From a virus: DNA of 22,590 nucleotides. The translations under genes were made by a program, and so were the position numbers. The stretch lies in the IMG/VR virus record IMGVR_UViG_3300035698_014131, positions 1-22,590 of that record; one strand, written 5' to 3'. The notes beneath the pieces were generated by a model that saw only the letters and a program-made list of their open reading frames with translations, did no database searches and was not told the DNA's origin. This document shows, in pieces, positions 11,548 through 22,590 of this stretch. Position 1 is the stretch's first letter, and each line of letters starts with the position of its first letter.

Positions 11548-13899
11548 CTAAACCCAATTAGGTCCAGTAATTTCTGATTCCTCTAGAATATCTGTCGCTG
11601 TAACCTCTGTAGTTTCTATAAGACTGTTGTCTAAATCGAAATCATCGTGGTTAAAAAATCTAATAGGAATTGTAAGAATTGGCCCTGCTTGTTCTGCAAT
11701 AGGCTTATAAATCCAACCTTTTATAGTAAAGTTCAATTCAGATTTCACAATTCTTCTTTCAGTGTCGGCCCACTCGATTGGTATATCTCTATTAATGTTC
11801 CCGTCAAAATCTATTCTCAATTCTCTCGGCACTTCATTTAACAGAGCAATATTTTCTTTTATCTTTACGATAATATATGGAGCAATATATGGTACAATAT
11901 TTTCACTTATTTGATGAATATGCGTTTCGTACTTCGCTAGAATCGATAAATTCATATCAATATTGTATGGAATTGGCATTCTATCATTGTATTGTTTCGA
12001 ATTCTGTTTCATTCTTCTTGTTCTGTAGTAGTTCAAAGCACGTTCGCCATCGTATGCTATGTTTGCAATCGACACACTGAATCTTGGAACCTTTGTATCA
12101 TACATTGAATCAGGATCAGTATTCTCATAGAGTTGTTCAATGAGTTTTCTTTCCTTTGGAGCATAAGTAATATCAATCATTGTTTCAACATCAGTATCCA
12201 AAGTCTCATTAGTTGATTCAGAATCTACAACCTTCATACCTTTGAAGAGAGACATGAATACAATGATTTGATTTCTAACAGATCTGTAATAGTAGTATTC
12301 TTGATTAGGTCTTCTCATTCCACTTGTAGAAGAGGAAGGTGAACGAATTTCAAAGAATACTGGATCGTCTTCTCCGAGAACAATTGAACTCGAAACAGGA
12401 CAGACTGCATCATGTGTACCTTCTTTATCAACGTTTAAGATTTTATAATCTGTACCGTCAAGAACTCGATCCTCTCCGGGATCAGTGTTACGTGCCGCTT
12501 CGTCAAAAGTTCCTACAAGATCAATATCGTAGATTTTATATGTAACATTTTTAACAACGTTTGTAATTCCGGGATCTGTATTCCTTGCAGCTTCATTAAT
12601 CTCTAGAGTTCCCTCTTTGTTTACACTTTCAATAATATATGTAACTCCGTCAAGAACATTCGCCTCGCCGGGATCTGAGCTTTCTAATCCACCCGTAAAC
12701 CCAAGACCACCCGCTATAGTATTTTTTACATTTGCAGTGAAGTCTGTCTGGTCTGTTAAGTTATCATCGTCCCAGTTACCTACGAAATCACTGCTCTTGA
12801 TTATGTCATCTCGACCTACAAACTCAAATAGCAGGCTTGCGCCGACAGGGAACTCACTGGCAACAAAAGCTCTGCCGTGTATATCATATTCTGCTGCACA
12901 ATCGGTTCCGTTGGCAAGTGCATCAGATGTTGTTTTCGCGGGCCACGGTATATCAGTATTACAGTCATAAGCCTCAGACATCCAAAGTTCTAATTCGGCA
13001 AGTGTCTTTTTAGTTCCAAGACCGTAAGTGCCAACATGATAAGATGTGGTTACAGTAGCATTAGTAACTACTGGAGTTTTCCCACAGAAAACTTCTAAGT
13101 TATTGGTAATTGTGGCCGCCCCACCTGACAAATTGTATGCTGAGTGGCAATAACTAAATGTAGAGTTCAGTGCAGTTAACGCTGCACTTTTGCACGTCAC
13201 TGCTTGCGTCGTTTGCCCTATGAAGAAACATGAATGAATATCAACAACATCTGTGGCCACGTTTGAATAAACACCATATTGCATACTATTTATAGTGCAT
13301 CTCTCATATCTAATACCGATACCCGACGCTGAACTGTCTTGATATACAAAGGTATGCCCATTCCTGCCAAGGACAGTAATATTTGAAATGACTGGTTTCT
13401 GTGTAACTCCAGACAAGTCACCACCTAGCCAATAAAACACAGTACTCACATTAAAGGTAACACCTCTACCTGCCAATATCCCTGACACGCTCCATCCAGT
13501 AGTTACTGCACCAGAAGCAAGAAACTCACCCCATCTTTGTAAATTATCAGTATTTACATATCCGACAAGCATCCTGCCACTACCATCAGTTGGCATAGCC
13601 GCTTTGCACGTTGCTACAGTGGGATAAATATTTATGCTACTGCCAACCTTCAGCATGCATCGGTCACCGGCAACCCAAGTAGATATATCACCGGCAGTAG
13701 TGACCATGAACCTACCGTCTGATTGCTCACCAAGGATAAATGACAATTGATATATCTGTGTTCTGGTATCATTTGCTATATAATCTGCAAGAGTAAATGA
13801 ATCGAATAAAGGCGCATCCCATTGTTTAGCCTTGAAGTAGATATTTTGTCCATCTATCTCGTCGATCTCAAGCATCTCACCACATAAAAAATCTGACAT
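11548..13899 (-). CDS. Fibre-like beta-helix module fused to a gp15-like tail terminator
   Basis: The protein has 783 residues in four parts. Residues 1-115 (start MSDFLCGEMLEIDEIDGQN) are nearly identical to the neighbouring fibre protein. About 120-290 looks like a right-handed beta-helix with short repeating turns (RYERCTINS, VDIHSCFFIG). About 294-365 is a shared hinge (GTKKTLAELELW...DIHGRAF...GASLLFEF). About 405-496 holds three DPG repeats. Residues from about 528 to 770 match T4 gp15, the tail terminator and sheath stabiliser: YYYYRSVRNQIIVFMSLFKG, MIDITYAPKERKLIEQL, PRFSVSIANIAYDGERALNY, PIPYNIDMNLSILAKYETHI and ENIVPYIAPY. gp15 is expected just upstream of the sheath, as here. The fusion is unusual. 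No good internal start for a separate gp15 was found. Confidence 0.8.
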   Translation of the reverse strand: MSDFLCGEMLEIDEIDGQNIYFKAKQWDAPLFDSFTLADYIANDTRTQIYQLSFILGEQSDGRFMVTTAGDISTWVAGDRCMLKVGSSINIYPTVATCKAAMPTDGSGRMLVGYVNTDNLQRWGEFLASGAVTTGWSVSGILAGRGVTFNVSTVFYWLGGDLSGVTQKPVISNITVLGRNGHTFVYQDSSASGIGIRYERCTINSMQYGVYSNVATDVVDIHSCFFIGQTTQAVTCKSAALTALNSTFSYCHSAYNLSGGAATITNNLEVFCGKTPVVTNATVTTSYHVGTYGLGTKKTLAELELWMSEAYDCNTDIPWPAKTTSDALANGTDCAAEYDIHGRAFVASEFPVGASLLFEFVGRDDIIKSSDFVGNWDDDNLTDQTDFTANVKNTIAGGLGFTGGLESSDPGEANVLDGVTYIIESVNKEGTLEINEAARNTDPGITNVVKNVTYKIYDIDLVGTFDEAARNTDPGEDRVLDGTDYKILNVDKEGTHDAVCPVSSSIVLGEDDPVFFEIRSPSSSTSGMRRPNQEYYYYRSVRNQIIVFMSLFKGMKVVDSESTNETLDTDVETMIDITYAPKERKLIEQLYENTDPDSMYDTKVPRFSVSIANIAYDGERALNYYRTRRMKQNSKQYNDRMPIPYNIDMNLSILAKYETHIHQISENIVPYIAPYIIVKIKENIALLNEVPRELRIDFDGNINRDIPIEWADTERRIVKSELNFTIKGWIYKPIAEQAGPILTIPIRFFNHDDFDLDNSLIETTEVTATDILEESEITGPNWV
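13570..13899 (-). repeat. Duplicated 5' coding block, copy 1
   Basis: About 330 nt at the start of the gp15-fusion gene, matching 15552-15881 at a constant offset of 1,982 nt. Long stretches are nearly identical in DNA, for example both contain CAACCCAAGTAGATATATCA, so third positions are conserved too. This points to recent duplication or gene conversion. Confidence 0.85.
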
Positions 13900-13907
13900 T
13901 TTTTATC

Positions 13908-15881
13908 CTATACCTGACTTGTAACTTTGGCTGAATAATATCCAATATCAATATCAACAGTTATCGAACCATCCCCAGAAAGGGTACCATCTGGTGTATC
14001 GCTCCAAACACCTCTATCCTTCACAATATAAATTTTATTTGTAGAACCTACTTCTGAACCTGTAACTGTAAAGGTCGCTGTATTGTCTCCGTTGTCTGTT
14101 ATAGTTAATGTTGGGCGATCAATATCAGGTGTTACTATCGTAGGAGTAACATAAGTTTCAGCAGAATGAGAACTATCAACAGCATTAGAGGAACGTGCAA
14201 CTCCATATAATGTATATTCGACATCGTTTGCTAATCCATATATTAATCCAGTTCCAAGGTCTGCATCAAATGCTCCAAGGAAGTTATCATTATTATCATC
14301 ATACACTAATATAACATCCCCAGTAGTGTATGAAGCTCTATTTGTAATAGACATCAGAACATTCCCACCTGTTTCTGTGTCTGTTGCTGTAAATCCAAGT
14401 GGAAGCTCTGGTGGAGTTCCTGTAGTTCCCTGTATTGAAACATTATGAATTTTATAAGTGACACTACTGTTTACATTTCCTGCTCCGGGATCTACATTAC
14501 GAGCTACCTCATCAAACAAACCAGTCTTTGAAATATTTTTAATGATATATGTAACGTCTTTTGTGACATTAGCAACACCGGGATCTGTATTTCTTGCAGA
14601 TTCGTCAAATGAACCTTCTTTGTTTATACTTTCAATAACATATGAAATTCCATCGATGACATTCGCTTCACCGGGATCTGTACTTTCAAGTGTTCCTACC
14701 AAGATACTATTTGCCCCAAAGGTAACAGGCTTTTGAACCTCTGCTACGGTAGCTTCGTGGTAATCTCCGTCACCTGCTTCTGTGACGTAGTCAGGATTTA
14801 CAAAATCAAATCTTAGGCTTGCGCCGATTGGATAGCTGCCCGCCACAAATGGTATGCCATGGATGTCGTGCGTTGCAGCGCAGTCTGTTCCTGCTCCAAG
14901 AAGATCAGACGTATCTTTTGCAGGATAGAATATGTTAGGTCTTCCTTGATAGCTTTCAGTTTTCCATGTCTCTAATTCTTCCATTGTTTTTTTTGTGCCG
15001 AGCGTGCCATCAAGGCTTACGCTCGTGGTTACTATAGCATTTTTGGGCATATAGAAATCAATATCGTTCAGGAACGAGGCGCAGTTTTTCACTATATTTG
15101 CTTTATCGTTTCCTCCAATCCCATTCTTGTTTTTGGAGAAAGTGCAATTTCTCATTGTCTGTGCAGTCATTGTGATACGAAAGCCATACGTATTACTATC
15201 GAAGTGACAAGATTCTGCCACAATCATGTGTGCGGACTGAGTATCGTTAGCGTTAAGGCCGCTATCACGACTCCCAGAGAAGATACACCTTTTGAACAAT
15301 ATCGGATAAGTCGGGTCTACTGATATGTTAAAAAATGTGGCATCAGCCGCGTGACTCATCATCTCGATGTTCTCAATAATTAGCTGACTCGTGATTCCAG
15401 AGGCGTCTCCTGTTATATTATAAAAATTTACCCAAGGATGGCAGGATATGCCGCAATCTGGCAAAACACCTATAATTGGATAACCATTTGTTGTTGATCC
15501 GATACCCTCAAACCAAGTCGTGCAATTGTTAGTGTCCTGATAACAGAGCAACATCCTGTCGCTACCATCTATAGCCATTGCGGCCTTACAAGTTGCCATT
15601 GTCGGATAAATATTTATGCTGCTGCCAACCTTCAGCATACATCTATCACCAGCAACCCAAGTAGATATATCACCGGCAGTCGTGACCATGAATCTGCCGT
15701 CTGTCTGCTCTCCAGTAATAAATGAAAGCTGATATATCTGCGACCTGTTATCGTTCGCGATAAAGTTTGATAGTGTGAAAGAATTGAACAAAGGCGCATC
15801 CCATTGTTTCGCCTTGAAGTAAACATTCTGGCCGTCTACTTCGTCAACCTCAAGCATTTCGCCGCACAAGAAGTCTGCCAT
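13908..15881 (-). CDS. Fibre-like beta-helix protein with DPG repeats and Ig/FN3-like C-terminus
   Basis: The protein has 657 residues. The first ~115 are almost the same as in the downstream fusion protein, so this looks like a virion-anchoring domain used twice. About 120-285 shows beta-helix turns (LFKRCIFSGS, IVAESCHFDSNTYGF, TMRNCTFSKNKNGIGG), as in phage tail spikes and polysaccharide-binding proteins. A hinge GTKKTMEELETW...DIHGIPF...GASLRFDF follows at about 292-360, then three DPG repeats at about 395-487. The last ~165 residues are Ser/Thr/Asp-rich beta sandwich material (TLTITDNGDNTATFTVTGS), typical of Ig- or fibronectin-like surface domains. It probably displays a host- or glycan-binding surface; no catalytic residues could be assigned. 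Confidence 0.75.
   Translation of the reverse strand: MADFLCGEMLEVDEVDGQNVYFKAKQWDAPLFNSFTLSNFIANDNRSQIYQLSFITGEQTDGRFMVTTAGDISTWVAGDRCMLKVGSSINIYPTMATCKAAMAIDGSDRMLLCYQDTNNCTTWFEGIGSTTNGYPIIGVLPDCGISCHPWVNFYNITGDASGITSQLIIENIEMMSHAADATFFNISVDPTYPILFKRCIFSGSRDSGLNANDTQSAHMIVAESCHFDSNTYGFRITMTAQTMRNCTFSKNKNGIGGNDKANIVKNCASFLNDIDFYMPKNAIVTTSVSLDGTLGTKKTMEELETWKTESYQGRPNIFYPAKDTSDLLGAGTDCAATHDIHGIPFVAGSYPIGASLRFDFVNPDYVTEAGDGDYHEATVAEVQKPVTFGANSILVGTLESTDPGEANVIDGISYVIESINKEGSFDESARNTDPGVANVTKDVTYIIKNISKTGLFDEVARNVDPGAGNVNSSVTYKIHNVSIQGTTGTPPELPLGFTATDTETGGNVLMSITNRASYTTGDVILVYDDNNDNFLGAFDADLGTGLIYGLANDVEYTLYGVARSSNAVDSSHSAETYVTPTIVTPDIDRPTLTITDNGDNTATFTVTGSEVGSTNKIYIVKDRGVWSDTPDGTLSGDGSITVDIDIGYYSAKVTSQV
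15552..15881 (-). repeat. Duplicated 5' coding block, copy 2
   Basis: The partner of 13570-13899, encoding the N-terminal ~110 residues of the fibre-like protein. Identity falls away sharply after this block, in the beta-helix part, and returns in the hinge and DPG repeats. This mosaic pattern is typical of fibre genes. Confidence 0.85.
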
Positions 15882-18929: not shown

Positions 18930-18958
18930 ATTATACAATAAATTCTTCTCGTTGTCAA
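18930..18958 (-). promoter_or_regulatory. Consensus sigma70 promoter for the deaminase operon
   Basis: The -35 TTGACA (18953-18958) and -10 TATAAT (18930-18935) are perfect and separated by 17 bp. The start should be near 18923, which leaves almost no leader before AAGGAG. Likely read by host RNA polymerase early in infection. Confidence 0.92.
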
Positions 18959-18977: not shown

Positions 18978-19006
18978 TTGACAATTATCATTCATTCTGT
19001 TATAAT
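18978..19006 (+). promoter_or_regulatory. Consensus sigma70 promoter for the 202-aa gene
   Basis: The -35 TTGACA (18978-18983) and -10 TATAAT (19001-19006) are also perfect with 17-bp spacing, firing rightward with a start near 19013. The two -35 boxes form an inverted repeat TTGTCAA/TTGACAA 19 bp apart, so both promoters share one control region. Confidence 0.92.
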
Positions 19007-19041: not shown

Positions 19042-19650
19042 ATGTCATATGTGGAGTACACAGGTTACACAATTCCTCGTAGAGCAGGTTGGGAAGATGT
19101 TCTCGAACCTTTGGTACGCAAGATTACAGGAGCGCAACAGGCAGATTGTCGAGCGGGTTGTTATTATGATTCTAAGTTATTTTTTATGAAACCTCATTAT
19201 CTCGGAACTTATTGTGAGTGTTCTTATGGGATCAAAGAGAGAGATTTTGCTAAAGATAATAATCATTCAGTACAATGCTTTCACACTTTCTGGAAAGAAG
19301 TTGACGATGCATTCAAATCTCACCCAAAATATAATTCCAGTAACGTATTGAAGGTTGCTAGAACCAATATGATGAGACAACTATGTACAAAGAATCATAT
19401 CAGATACGAACCAAACGTTATAGAGAAACTATGTACTTGTCCTTATCAAAATAAGTGGCGAGAACTGGGATACGAACACGATGAAGGTTGTAAAGCAATT
19501 CAACCTAACTTCTGGTATAAGAAAACAGATCATAAAATCTGGTGGTATAGGTTCTTTTTCAGGGATTCATACTGCAATCAAGACATTACTTTGCCTGAAT
19601 TTGAAGAAATCGTCAAAAAATGTACAAATTATGTGAACCTTCACCCTTAA
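19042..19650 (+). CDS. Cysteine-rich protein with duplicated CxC...HxxxC motif
   Basis: The protein has 202 residues. Two related blocks are visible: C58-E-C60 ... H75-x3-C79 then FW (83-84), and C131-T-C133 ... H146-x3-C150 then FW (157-158). Both fit CxC-x(12-14)-H-x3-C-x(3-6)-FW, which suggests two small metal sites of one kind. The end carries aromatic WWYRFFFRDSY and a final helix with a Cys. The ATG at 19042 follows AAGGAG (19030-19035), and the gene has its own consensus promoter, so it is probably expressed early. Early phage genes of this sort often alter host functions, but that is inference. I do not recognise the family. Confidence 0.75.
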   Translation: MSYVEYTGYTIPRRAGWEDVLEPLVRKITGAQQADCRAGCYYDSKLFFMKPHYLGTYCECSYGIKERDFAKDNNHSVQCFHTFWKEVDDAFKSHPKYNSSNVLKVARTNMMRQLCTKNHIRYEPNVIEKLCTCPYQNKWRELGYEHDEGCKAIQPNFWYKKTDHKIWWYRFFFRDSYCNQDITLPEFEEIVKKCTNYVNLHP

Positions 19651-19669
19651 TATGTTAATCAGGTATAAT
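19640..19669 (+). promoter_or_regulatory. Weak possible promoter before the cassette
   Basis: TATAAT (19664-19669) is preceded at 18 bp by a poor -35 (TTCACC). It lies outside the cassette junction and could drive the restriction-modification genes, as cassettes normally lack promoters and rely on the target site. Confidence 0.25.
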
Positions 19670-19764
19670 AAAGTCACAGGTGTAGCTCGCAAAAACCGGT
19701 GATTCGTACGTTATGTGTAAAGAATATAAAGAAATAATTTAAGATTAATTATAGGATAAAAATT

Positions 19765-21321
19765 TTGAAACAAAAAAGAGATAGATACGAAATGCACAAG
19801 TATTGGGGAAAAAAGCCTTCAAATGACTTGAAAGAACTAATTGATCAATACACAGTTCAAGGAGATACTGTCCTTGATCCATTTGCTGGATATGGAGTAT
19901 TTGGATGTGAGGCTTTTATAATGAACAGAAATGTCATTCTCAATGACTTGAATCCTGTTGCAAATTTTCTCAATAATCAGCTTCTTCAAAAAGACATTGA
20001 TTTACAATTAATTGAAAAACAATGGAAAGTTATTAAAGCTGAATTTAAACCTTTTGTGGCAAAATGGCACGAATGGGATATAGACGGGAAAATGGTACAA
20101 TTAACTTCTATTCTTAGAGATAAGAATAATATTCCAATAAAAGCGAAATACAAAAGTAACGGGGATAGAAGTTGTACAGAATTTGAAATCAAAAAAAAGG
20201 CTGCTGATAAATATTTGGATTTTGAACATTCTCAACCCATTAATGACTGGTTTCCAACTATTCAACTCATCAGAAACTCAAGAATATCAGCAAAAGAAGG
20301 AATGACCGTTGCTGACCTTTTTACAAAAAGAACGCTTTCTTGTCACGCAAGACTTTTGTCATTAATTGAAGCCCATTCAAGCGGAGCGGAAAGCGATTTA
20401 TTCAAAGTTGCCTTTACCGCAAATTTAGCCAATTGTTCTAAACTTGTACCTCCAATAAAAAGTAGAGGCGCTATGGCTCCAGGTGCATGGATGACAGGTT
20501 TTTATACTGGTGAAACATATTTAGAAAATAATGTATTATCATATTTTGAAAATAGATTCAGTAAAATAATCAAAGGTAAAAATGACTATCTAAATCAATT
20601 TGGAAACAACGGAGAATTAAATTTTAATCAAATCCAATACGACAATAATTATCAAAACATTCAAAATGACGCTAAAGCACTTGACATTAAAGACGAGTCA
20701 ATAGATTACATTTTTACAGACCCACCTTATGGTGATGCTGTCCCATATTTTGAGCAAAGTATAATTTGGAATTCTTGGCTAAAATTAACACCTGATTATA
20801 AAAATGAAATAGTGATTTCTGACAGCAAGGAACGAGAAAAAGGGACTGCAAATTTTGAAAAGGATATTCATGTAGCTTTTTCTGAGATGAGACGAGTACT
20901 AAAAACAAACAAATATTTGTCACTTACTTATCATTCTTTATCTGGATTAGAATGGAAAGCGATAACTAATGCTTGTATAAAAAATGGGTTTGACCTTTTT
21001 GATTATAAATGGCTCGTTCAGAAATCATTTACCCCAAGACAAATTAACAGGTTAAAAAGTGTCAAAGGTGATGTTTTAGTTACTTTTAAAAAGTCTGAAA
21101 TAGAAAAAATCACTCAAAAAACTGACAATGAAGTAAGAAATATTTTTCTATGCAACTTAACAAAATGGCTCGAATCTAAGCCACTAGACACAAATGAAAT
21201 TTTTCTCAGAATCATGAAAATCGTATTTACTAAAAAAATATTAATAGGAAATGTTGATTTATCGAAGATACTAAGTGAGAATTTTAAATTCTCCGATAAT
21301 AATAAATGGAGATTAAAATGA
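19765..21321 (+). CDS. Site-specific DNA methyltransferase (N4-cytosine or N6-adenine)
   Basis: The protein has 518 residues. The AdoMet-binding motif I is DPFAGYG (38-44), followed by NDLNP (60-64). The catalytic motif IV is DPPYG (319-323), typical of amino methyltransferases. About 250 residues lie between them and probably contain the target-recognition part, so the order is motif I, recognition, motif IV (alpha-like). The N-terminal HKYWGKKP is common in this group. The start is TTG at 19765 with AGGA 8 nt before; an ATG at 19792 is a second choice. It protects DNA from the endonuclease encoded next, whose start overlaps its stop. The specificity cannot be read from sequence. Confidence 0.9.
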   Translation: MKQKRDRYEMHKYWGKKPSNDLKELIDQYTVQGDTVLDPFAGYGVFGCEAFIMNRNVILNDLNPVANFLNNQLLQKDIDLQLIEKQWKVIKAEFKPFVAKWHEWDIDGKMVQLTSILRDKNNIPIKAKYKSNGDRSCTEFEIKKKAADKYLDFEHSQPINDWFPTIQLIRNSRISAKEGMTVADLFTKRTLSCHARLLSLIEAHSSGAESDLFKVAFTANLANCSKLVPPIKSRGAMAPGAWMTGFYTGETYLENNVLSYFENRFSKIIKGKNDYLNQFGNNGELNFNQIQYDNNYQNIQNDAKALDIKDESIDYIFTDPPYGDAVPYFEQSIIWNSWLKLTPDYKNEIVISDSKEREKGTANFEKDIHVAFSEMRRVLKTNKYLSLTYHSLSGLEWKAITNACIKNGFDLFDYKWLVQKSFTPRQINRLKSVKGDVLVTFKKSEIEKITQKTDNEVRNIFLCNLTKWLESKPLDTNEIFLRIMKIVFTKKILIGNVDLSKILSENFKFSDNNKWRLK

Positions 21322-22427
21322 CAAACTTGAACTTTACGGAATTAGACAGATGCTTTAGAAACAATGATTTTCCAAGCATTGAAAACGATAATAGAGGAAT
21401 TAGATTTTTAAAACTTAGAAGTATGTCTCGAAAAGCGACTATGGAAGAGTTTTGCGAAATACATAATATTGATATTGAGGAATTAGGCTCAAGAGAATAT
21501 TTTCAACACATTTTTAGTCTTGAAGCAGTAACAGATGAGCAAATTAATGACTTTATCAATCAAAAGTATCAAGAAGAAAGACGAGAAAGAGCTGATAATC
21601 AAGATTATTTAGTTGACCAGATGAATAGACTTCAACATTTTGATTGGGGTGGTTCATTTGGAAATAGTTTGGAGAAAAATATTGTAAATAATTATGTCAA
21701 AAAAATACAATCTTATGACCTAATAAATGAGGAAATAGAAGGAAACCTTTTGTCAAGTTTGAGAGGATATACTTTAAACTCTTGGTATAATCATTGGACT
21801 TCTATTCTCATAGAAGATTTATTCAAAGACCACCAATCTGTATTGCCAACAGTTGGGTTAGTTAAGAAGATTGATTTTTTCATTAACGACATACCTTTTG
21901 ATTTAAAGGTTACATATTTTCCTGAACAACTGCTTGCAGACAAGTTAAAAGAAAGTGGTTACGGAAATGAACTAACAAGGTTAAAACAAATTTGCCGACA
22001 ACTTGAAATATTTATTCCAACCGACTTAAAGCCCAAAGAACTTAAATTACATCTTCATAATATTGTTGCAGAAGACCAACGAGAAGAAGCAAGAGAGTTT
22101 ATAGCAACTATAAAAGAGCATAAAAGAAATATAATTTCTGAAGCAGAAGAAAGCCCTGCCGAATTGAAAAAGTGGTTTTATGAAAATCAAGGAGAAGCAA
22201 GATTTGATGCTTCAAACAGATTTTTCTTAGTTCTTACAGATGAAACTGATATGACCAACAGTTGGAAATTAAAGAGAAATATTGTCTTTTTAAGAGAAGA
22301 AATAAACGAACATTTGGACAATTTATTAATGGATATGACAAGTCTTGAAACGGAATTTTATTGGCATCAAGACCAACAGACTTATATTTGCAAGTCTGAT
22401 ATTTTGTTCTTAAAATATGGTGAATAA
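21318..22427 (+). CDS. Type II-like restriction endonuclease, PD-(D/E)xK fold
   Basis: The protein has 369 residues from the ATG at 21318. An upstream ATG (21306) exists, but GGAG at 21308-21311 fits the 21318 start, and ATGA overlaps the methyltransferase stop, a classic coupled start. The core is D186-x8-D195-L-K197 within KKIDFFINDIPFDLKVTYFP, an intact PD-(D/E)xK site. It is preceded by an Asn/Trp-rich helix (LNSWYNHWTSILIEDLF) that likely carries the acidic residue of the N-terminal helix. The C-terminal part is charged and helical. Position after a methyltransferase makes a restriction enzyme by far the likeliest role. The recognition site is unknown. Confidence 0.82.
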   Translation: MTNLNFTELDRCFRNNDFPSIENDNRGIRFLKLRSMSRKATMEEFCEIHNIDIEELGSREYFQHIFSLEAVTDEQINDFINQKYQEERRERADNQDYLVDQMNRLQHFDWGGSFGNSLEKNIVNNYVKKIQSYDLINEEIEGNLLSSLRGYTLNSWYNHWTSILIEDLFKDHQSVLPTVGLVKKIDFFINDIPFDLKVTYFPEQLLADKLKESGYGNELTRLKQICRQLEIFIPTDLKPKELKLHLHNIVAEDQREEAREFIATIKEHKRNIISEAEESPAELKKWFYENQGEARFDASNRFFLVLTDETDMTNSWKLKRNIVFLREEINEHLDNLLMDMTSLETEFYWHQDQQTYICKSDILFLKYGE

Positions 22428-22441
22428 ACTATAAATAAATC

Positions 22442-22511
22442 ACATAACAAATCGTTTCACCTGACATTTTTCCGCTCCGCTTCAAAATGCAGGTGAACTC
22501 AGCCGTTATCT
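22442..22511 (+). other. attC recombination site of the cassette
   Basis: R'' is ACATAAC (22442-22448) and R' is GTTATCT (22505-22511); ATAAC pairs with GTTAT. Inside, TTCACCTGACATTTT (22456-22470) pairs with AAAATGCAGGTGAA (22484-22497) over 14 bp, leaving A22464 as an extrahelical base. The two 7-nt spacers at 22449-22455 and 22498-22504 are unpaired, as in known attC. The loop holds CCGCTCCGC, a string I recall from other attC sites. Length (70 bp) and orientation fit. Confidence 0.78.
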
Positions 22512-22541
22512 GTTCTTTGTACAAATCGAGGAGGGTGAGTG

Positions 22542-22590
22542 ATGAATGAGCAATCAGGGGAACAAATCCGAAAAAACCTTGAAGGGAAAA
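22542..22590 (+). CDS. Start of an unidentified gene (truncated by window end)
   Basis: An ATG at 22542 follows GAGGAGGG (22528-22535) at 6 nt, an excellent ribosome site. Only 16 codons are visible (start MNEQSGEQIRKNLEGK), with no stop. It lies 31 nt after the attC R', in cassette orientation. It could be the next cassette of an array or the phage gene originally downstream. Nothing can be said about function. Confidence 0.5.
   Translation, partial: MNEQSGEQIRKNLEGK

Follow-up and report, generated by a model that had tools for sequence, protein, structure and literature searches.

A restriction-modification-type integron gene cassette in a T4-like phage contig

Background

How did a restriction-modification-type gene pair come to lie between two integron-type recombination points, directly behind a gene of a T4-like phage? 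Integrons are bacterial gene stores, and the presence of defense genes among their cassettes is a current topic. The window analyzed here, i.e., the whole stretch of DNA, is a 22,590-bp linear IMG/VR virus record and represents a genome fragment; it contains a restriction-modification-type cassette within a T4-like phage contig, near its right end and on the plus strand. With a probability of roughly 0.72, the segment constitutes a lone integron gene cassette encoding a Type II-like restriction-modification (R-M) pair, the endonuclease being putative, that was inserted into a virulent T4-like phage just 3' of an early-type gene by an IntI of the host.

The carrier phage and the insertion site

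The minus-strand genes of the window encode a baseplate wedge, a baseplate hub with tail lysozyme, a tail tube, a tail sheath and a sheath stabilizer (as assigned by PHROGs), which together form a T4-type contractile tail module. The nearest matches of the tail sheath come from T4-like phages, at about 30-34% identity. Two adjacent minus-strand genes (11548-13899 and 13908-15881) encode proteins with a common long N-terminal region (M[AS]DFLCGEMLE[VI]DE...), one of which runs into a sheath-stabilizer domain (phrog_227, residues 533-757), while different repeats follow in the other. For a T4-like phage, a sheath stabilizer that is fused and duplicated is unusual.

The insertion is anchored to the phage by the gene directly upstream of the cassette (19042-19650, plus strand, 202 aa), whose homologs have the same neighbors in three relatives: L005 (9.4 kb), L044 (191.8 kb) and L045 (9.9 kb). 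The identity of this gene amounts to 54-71% in L005 and L044, and to 40% in L045. All three relatives share the gene order, their next gene lies within ~60 nt of the homolog of the 202-aa gene, and neither a cassette nor an attC site is present. Beside the 202-aa gene, they encode a membrane-anchored protein with weak squalene/hopene-cyclase-type repeats, an odd phage cargo (L005 4802-6334, L044 4004-5542 and L045 3947-5506).

The 202-aa gene is preceded by a sigma-70 promoter match (18978-19006, plus strand; TTGACA-17-TATAAT with TG, 12/12 consensus matches), found at the same place in L005 (12/12) and L044 (11/12), with none in L045. A second promoter-like sequence (19640-19669, plus strand; TTCACC-18-TATAAT, 10/12) is located 41 bp 5' of the cassette in the same orientation and was not seen in L005, L044 or L045. 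As the cassette is codirectional with both, its early transcription by the host polymerase is plausible. The perfect 12/12 promoter at 18978-19006 is one of a divergent pair, the other perfect 12/12 match lying ~20 bp away at 18930-18958 on the minus strand.

Cassette boundaries and the attC site

The cassette extends over 19711-22505 (plus strand, 2795 bp), i.e., from the first T after G19710 through G22505, with G/TT at each end (the slash marks the crossover point) and a single attC site at its 3' end. When a cassette opens at G/TT and inserts, the start of its own R' box stays on the left, while the TT of the target is found on the right. The left junction, G/TTATGTG (19710-19717, plus strand), comprises the target G and, after it, the opening bases of the cassette, and is the exact reverse complement of the R'' box of the same cassette. 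The sequence GTTATGTG at 19710 occurs only once on the plus strand of the window, and its complement, CACATAAC, starts the attC site at 22441; a chance match of the left junction in the ~115-nt gap ahead of the gene has a p near 0.002 by a simple 4^8 estimate. The right junction reads G/TTATCTG, with the crossover after G22505. Since the left junction is complementary to the cassette's own R'' and the right one reads G/TTATCTG, the segment 19711-22505 corresponds to one cassette. The pre-insertion site of the phage would have read ...TTCGTACG/TTATCTGTTCTTTG..., its right half starting with TTATCTG. The G+C content of the insert is 31%, compared with 38% in the phage.

The attC site (22442-22511, plus strand; R'' at 22442-22448 and R' at 22505-22511) directly follows the open reading frames in the same orientation, the last stop codon ending at 22427. 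It was detected with a covariance model (R1) whose 13 training sites all stem from other records, the window sequence being left out of the training. The sources include plasmid-borne class 1 integrons, a phage record that contains a Vibrio integron, Tetrasphaera phage TJE1, and the integrons of Methylococcales and their relatives; the arms were trimmed in the training alignment, since full-length sites misaligned in their 3' arms. In the R1 search of the window, 22442-22511 is the sole site (47.1 bits, E=7.3e-11), and the second-best match (10.3 bits, E=1.3) is at noise level. An attC site or array to the left of the cassette was considered and rejected, as R1 gave no match there. Rfam at gathering thresholds yielded no match in the window.

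Folded as DNA, the bottom strand of the site reaches -12.2 kcal/mol (z=-3.2 against dinucleotide shuffles, 1/200 of which are as good), whereas the top strand is weaker at -10.7 kcal/mol; better folding of the bottom strand is the expectation for attC. The minimum-energy fold consists of a 14-bp stem with one extrahelical base (22464), and a T within 22455-22457 is probably a second one. When the stem is aligned to canonical sites, CGTT[T]CACCTG[A]CATTTT pairs with AAAATG CAGGTG AAC, and the T sits where the aadA2, VCR and TJE1 sites carry their second extrahelical base. In this alignment the site is composed of R'' (ACATAAC), a 5-nt spacer, GTT, the T, CACCTG, the extrahelical A, CATTTT and the loop, followed by AAAATG, CAGGTG, AAC, a 6-nt spacer and R' (GTTATCT). 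Both boxes differ from RYYYAAC and GTTRRRY at one position each, a deviation that occurs in real attC sites (e.g., ACATAAC...GTTATAT in VCR). The site thus combines R''/R' boxes, an imperfect stem and extrahelical bases.

A sequence-only reading had placed an integron cassette at 19711-22505 and described its left junction as the exact reverse complement of the right-end R''. The coordinates agree with the attC model match and the G/TT edges, and the complementarity is borne out, the left junction being unique on the plus strand. The covariance-model search and the bottom-strand fold that it had proposed as checks returned the site and recovered the stem, respectively; its 14-bp stem with one extrahelical base corresponds to the minimum-energy fold, to which the probable second extrahelical base has to be added. 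The proposed comparison with relatives was likewise in its favor, as three of them share the gene order and are free of both cassette and attC.

The methyltransferase and its partner

The first gene of the cassette (19765-21321, plus strand, 518 aa, TTG start) encodes an N6_N4-type DNA methyltransferase with DPFAGYG and DPPYG motifs. It matches PF01555 (E=3.9e-13) and, over its full length, the PADLOC model MTase_II (E=3.6e-147), so the DNA methyltransferase of a Type II R-M system is present. The partner gene (21318-22427, plus strand, 369 aa) encodes a putative PD-(D/E)XK restriction endonuclease. Its open reading frame was called at 21306-22427; alignment of homologs sets the real start at ATG 21318 (MTNLNF...), which overlaps the stop codon of the methyltransferase as ATGA. 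In family, sequence and fold searches, the partner protein has no match in Pfam, NCBIfam, PADLOC or PDB; two restriction enzymes, 3ndh and 9ibq, were dropped as its PDB relatives (E>1). A D-x8-DLK motif is conserved among the homologs of the partner, and in an AlphaFold2 model (pLDDT 74) the conserved KKIDFFINDIPFDLK is located on a beta-hairpin (strands 189-193 and 196-204). A beta-hairpin is the usual location of the PD-(D/E)XK active site. The adjacency to a methyltransferase and the D...DLK motif on the predicted beta-hairpin suggest that the partner is a restriction endonuclease, and its assignment as such is putative.

The partner adjoins the methyltransferase in ~20 bacterial genomes of several phyla, at 61-88% identity. 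An integron integrase scoring above the family cut-off is encoded in 5/31 methyltransferase-bearing genomes, four of which have homologs of the pair together with attC hits (58 in a Methylococcales symbiont, 47 in a Zetaproteobacterium, 35 in a Methylococcaceae member and 7 in Colwellia). In one genome (L017), an attC site (49 bits) follows 13 bp past the stop codon of the last gene of the pair. In two Bacteroidota genomes (L009 4916-7743 and L010 4918-7743), the two copies of the pair share 98.5% identity along 2828 bp that run from GTT to GTT, and the DNA on either side is unrelated: the shared segment begins exactly at GTTCTCGG and finishes at CCGTT. This identity, bounded exactly by GTT at both ends, indicates that the pair moves between G/TT sites as a cassette. 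The same gene unit as in the window is therefore a cassette elsewhere, both with an attC (L017) and as mobile copies (L009/L010). The Bacteroidota 'intI' hits score below the family cut-off and were not counted as integron integrases; the L009/L010 genomes possibly possess a cassette system whose integrase is divergent. Next to the closest bacterial methyltransferases (81-85% identical), the gene for the nuclease is missing (L006), internally deleted (L007) or represented by its last part only (L011); the phage copy is whole.

No close relative of the methyltransferase or its partner was found in 50,697 phage records, the sole match being a partial methyltransferase at 26.8%, and a conserved-peptide search of 2.9 million IMG/VR contigs did not find the gene pair. 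Related phages carrying the pair without the site, which would have spoken against a cassette, were not encountered.

There is an appreciable, if less than even, chance that the methyltransferase alone matters to the phage, as an anti-restriction function, and that its partner is an inert passenger or something other than an endonuclease. The methyltransferases in published phage cassettes come with no reported endonuclease (PMC9892861), the partner is missing or eroded in the closest bacterial relatives (L006, L007 and L011), and it lacks a family match. On the other hand, the partner is whole and full length in the phage, and across phyla it has stayed beside the methyltransferase, its D...DLK motif retained. 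The two parts of the sequence-only reading fare differently: a precisely bounded integron-type cassette in a T4-like phage contig, absent from three relatives, stands, as does the methyltransferase of the proposed methyltransferase/endonuclease pair (PF01555, MTase_II), whereas its second gene is called an endonuclease by adjacency and motif, with no family or PDB match.

The right flank

The right flank (22506-22590, plus strand) consists of 36 nt followed by an incomplete open reading frame that starts at ATG 22542 after GGAGGG. The 79 bases left after the attC site have no significant similarity to the gene present at this place in the relatives, and they could be phage DNA or the start of another cassette. 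The first residues of the encoded peptide (16 residues) resemble those of the next gene in the relatives; as shuffled sequences match that gene equally well (p=0.54), homology is not claimed.

It is unlikely that phage DNA is fused in this contig to a portion of a bacterial integron array, by an assembly join or by uptake of several cassettes, with the last 79 bases as the start of the next cassette. The contig does end 79 bases past the attC site, and its right flank opens with TTATCTG followed by a ribosome-binding site and ATG, an arrangement common in cassettes; the lack of significant similarity to the phage gene of the relatives points in the same direction. Yet the left break falls exactly at the cassette recombination point, which a random assembly join would miss, and there is no attC on the left. 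A gene with its ribosome-binding site is found at such spacing in the relatives, too, and uptake of several cassettes would still represent integron recombination into phage DNA.

Capture of the cassette

A tyrosine recombinase was found neither in the window nor in the 191.8-kb relative L044, with a positive control, so the locus is not a complete integron (intI, attI); L044 also has no N6/N4 methyltransferase by Pfam. Because the 191.8-kb relative encodes no tyrosine recombinase, the recombination is most simply attributed to an integrase from the host, and the phage itself, as judged from this near relative, probably lacks one. Most likely, IntI of the host cell would recombine the folded bottom strand of the cassette attC with a G/TT site in the phage DNA during infection, and this target would not be attI but a secondary or 'attG'-type site. 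IntI is known to use degenerate secondary sites with a GNT/GTT core (PMC10127599), and attG sites are attributed to Loot et al. 2024, as cited in PMC12901181.

Compared with this integrase-driven capture, entry of the segment by homologous or illegitimate recombination with cassette-bearing host DNA, with no integrase event on the phage DNA, appears highly improbable. T4-like phages recombine freely, which counts for such an entry. The boundaries of phage arrays are also discussed in these terms in PMC9892861, but both edges of the segment fall on G/TT crossover points, and no neighboring integron sequence is recognizable on its left. That the attC hairpin is a chance inverted repeat or a terminator (terminators form hairpins too) and the gene pair an ordinary insertion is already refuted by the independent model match, the fold, the exactly complementary left junction and the attC that adjoins the homologous pair in L017.

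Once captured, the cassette would be transcribed early in infection by the host RNA polymerase from the upstream promoters. The methyltransferase may mark phage DNA at the site of the enzyme and thereby shield it from host enzymes with that specificity, while the partner nuclease, if active, could cut unmarked DNA of the host or of competing phages. The benefit of a nuclease in a lytic phage is uncertain. Phages can pick up such cassettes, perhaps for use against the host or rival phages. A far-reaching version, in which lytic T4-like phages use host integrons as a swappable armoury – the early operon serving as the landing site where IntI installs defense cassettes, here a working R-M pair turned on the host or rivals and passable to new hosts – is speculative and rather doubtful.

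Comparison with known systems

Cassettes with attC sites and methyltransferases in lytic phages are already known, having been published in 2023, a point that the sequence-only reading had missed. Qi et al. 2023 (PMC9892861) described attC arrays (CALINs) in lytic phages including TJE1, P12002L and PH101, found five methyltransferases among the phage cassettes, discussed orphan methyltransferases, and showed that IntI1 recombined phage attC sites. The window resembles these phages in having an attC without an integrase and a DNA methyltransferase as cargo. Moreover, the layout of the TJE1 attC (L083 1016-1075) is like that of the window attC, with CCTG[A]C and AACTCA in stem and spacer. Their screen required at least two attC sites, a phage CALIN being defined by at least two within 3 kb; with one attC in 22.6 kb, the window is filed as a lone cassette and not as a CALIN. 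Unlike the CALINs, it combines this one attC with a two-gene R-M-like pair and precise G/TT edges. No endonuclease partner is reported for the published methyltransferases, and for none of them is a solitary cassette in a T4-like phage described. What is new in the window is a lone cassette that occupies a non-integron site of a T4-like phage and contains an R-M pair that appears complete.

As for chromosomal integrons, bacteria that have intI and attC arrays carry the same pair as a cassette (L017/G015), and R-M cassettes in bacterial integrons have been reported, according to works cited in PMC9892861; in contrast, the window cassette resides in a virus, outside any integron. As a single cassette at a non-integron G/TT (target GTTATCT), it resembles attG and secondary-site insertions (Loot et al. 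2024 via PMC12901181; PMC10127599), which these sources describe for bacterial chromosomes and plasmids, whereas here the recipient is a phage genome on which IntI would have acted. Chloroviruses (PMC7019647) are also lytic DNA viruses with an adjacent methyltransferase and restriction endonuclease, the latter being putative in the window. They degrade host DNA with similar pairs, and their enzymes gave no mutual exclusion (PMC7019647); they are algal viruses that package the endonucleases in virions, and their route of acquisition is unrelated.

An R-M cassette placed precisely in a T4-like virus with no recognizable integrase shows an integron gene store reaching a lytic phage, and the window supplies a natural phage junction at which capture by an integrase can be tested. 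The find also suggests that lone cassettes are overlooked when attC screens of viral databases demand at least two sites. The attC motif resembling that of the window was found in only 8 IMG/VR records, TJE1 among them. Arrays of attC sites are carried by five viral contigs of 6-48 kb (L101, L103, L104, L105 and L108), and that of L108 (IMGVR_UViG_2834908352_000001) comprises >10 attC sites.
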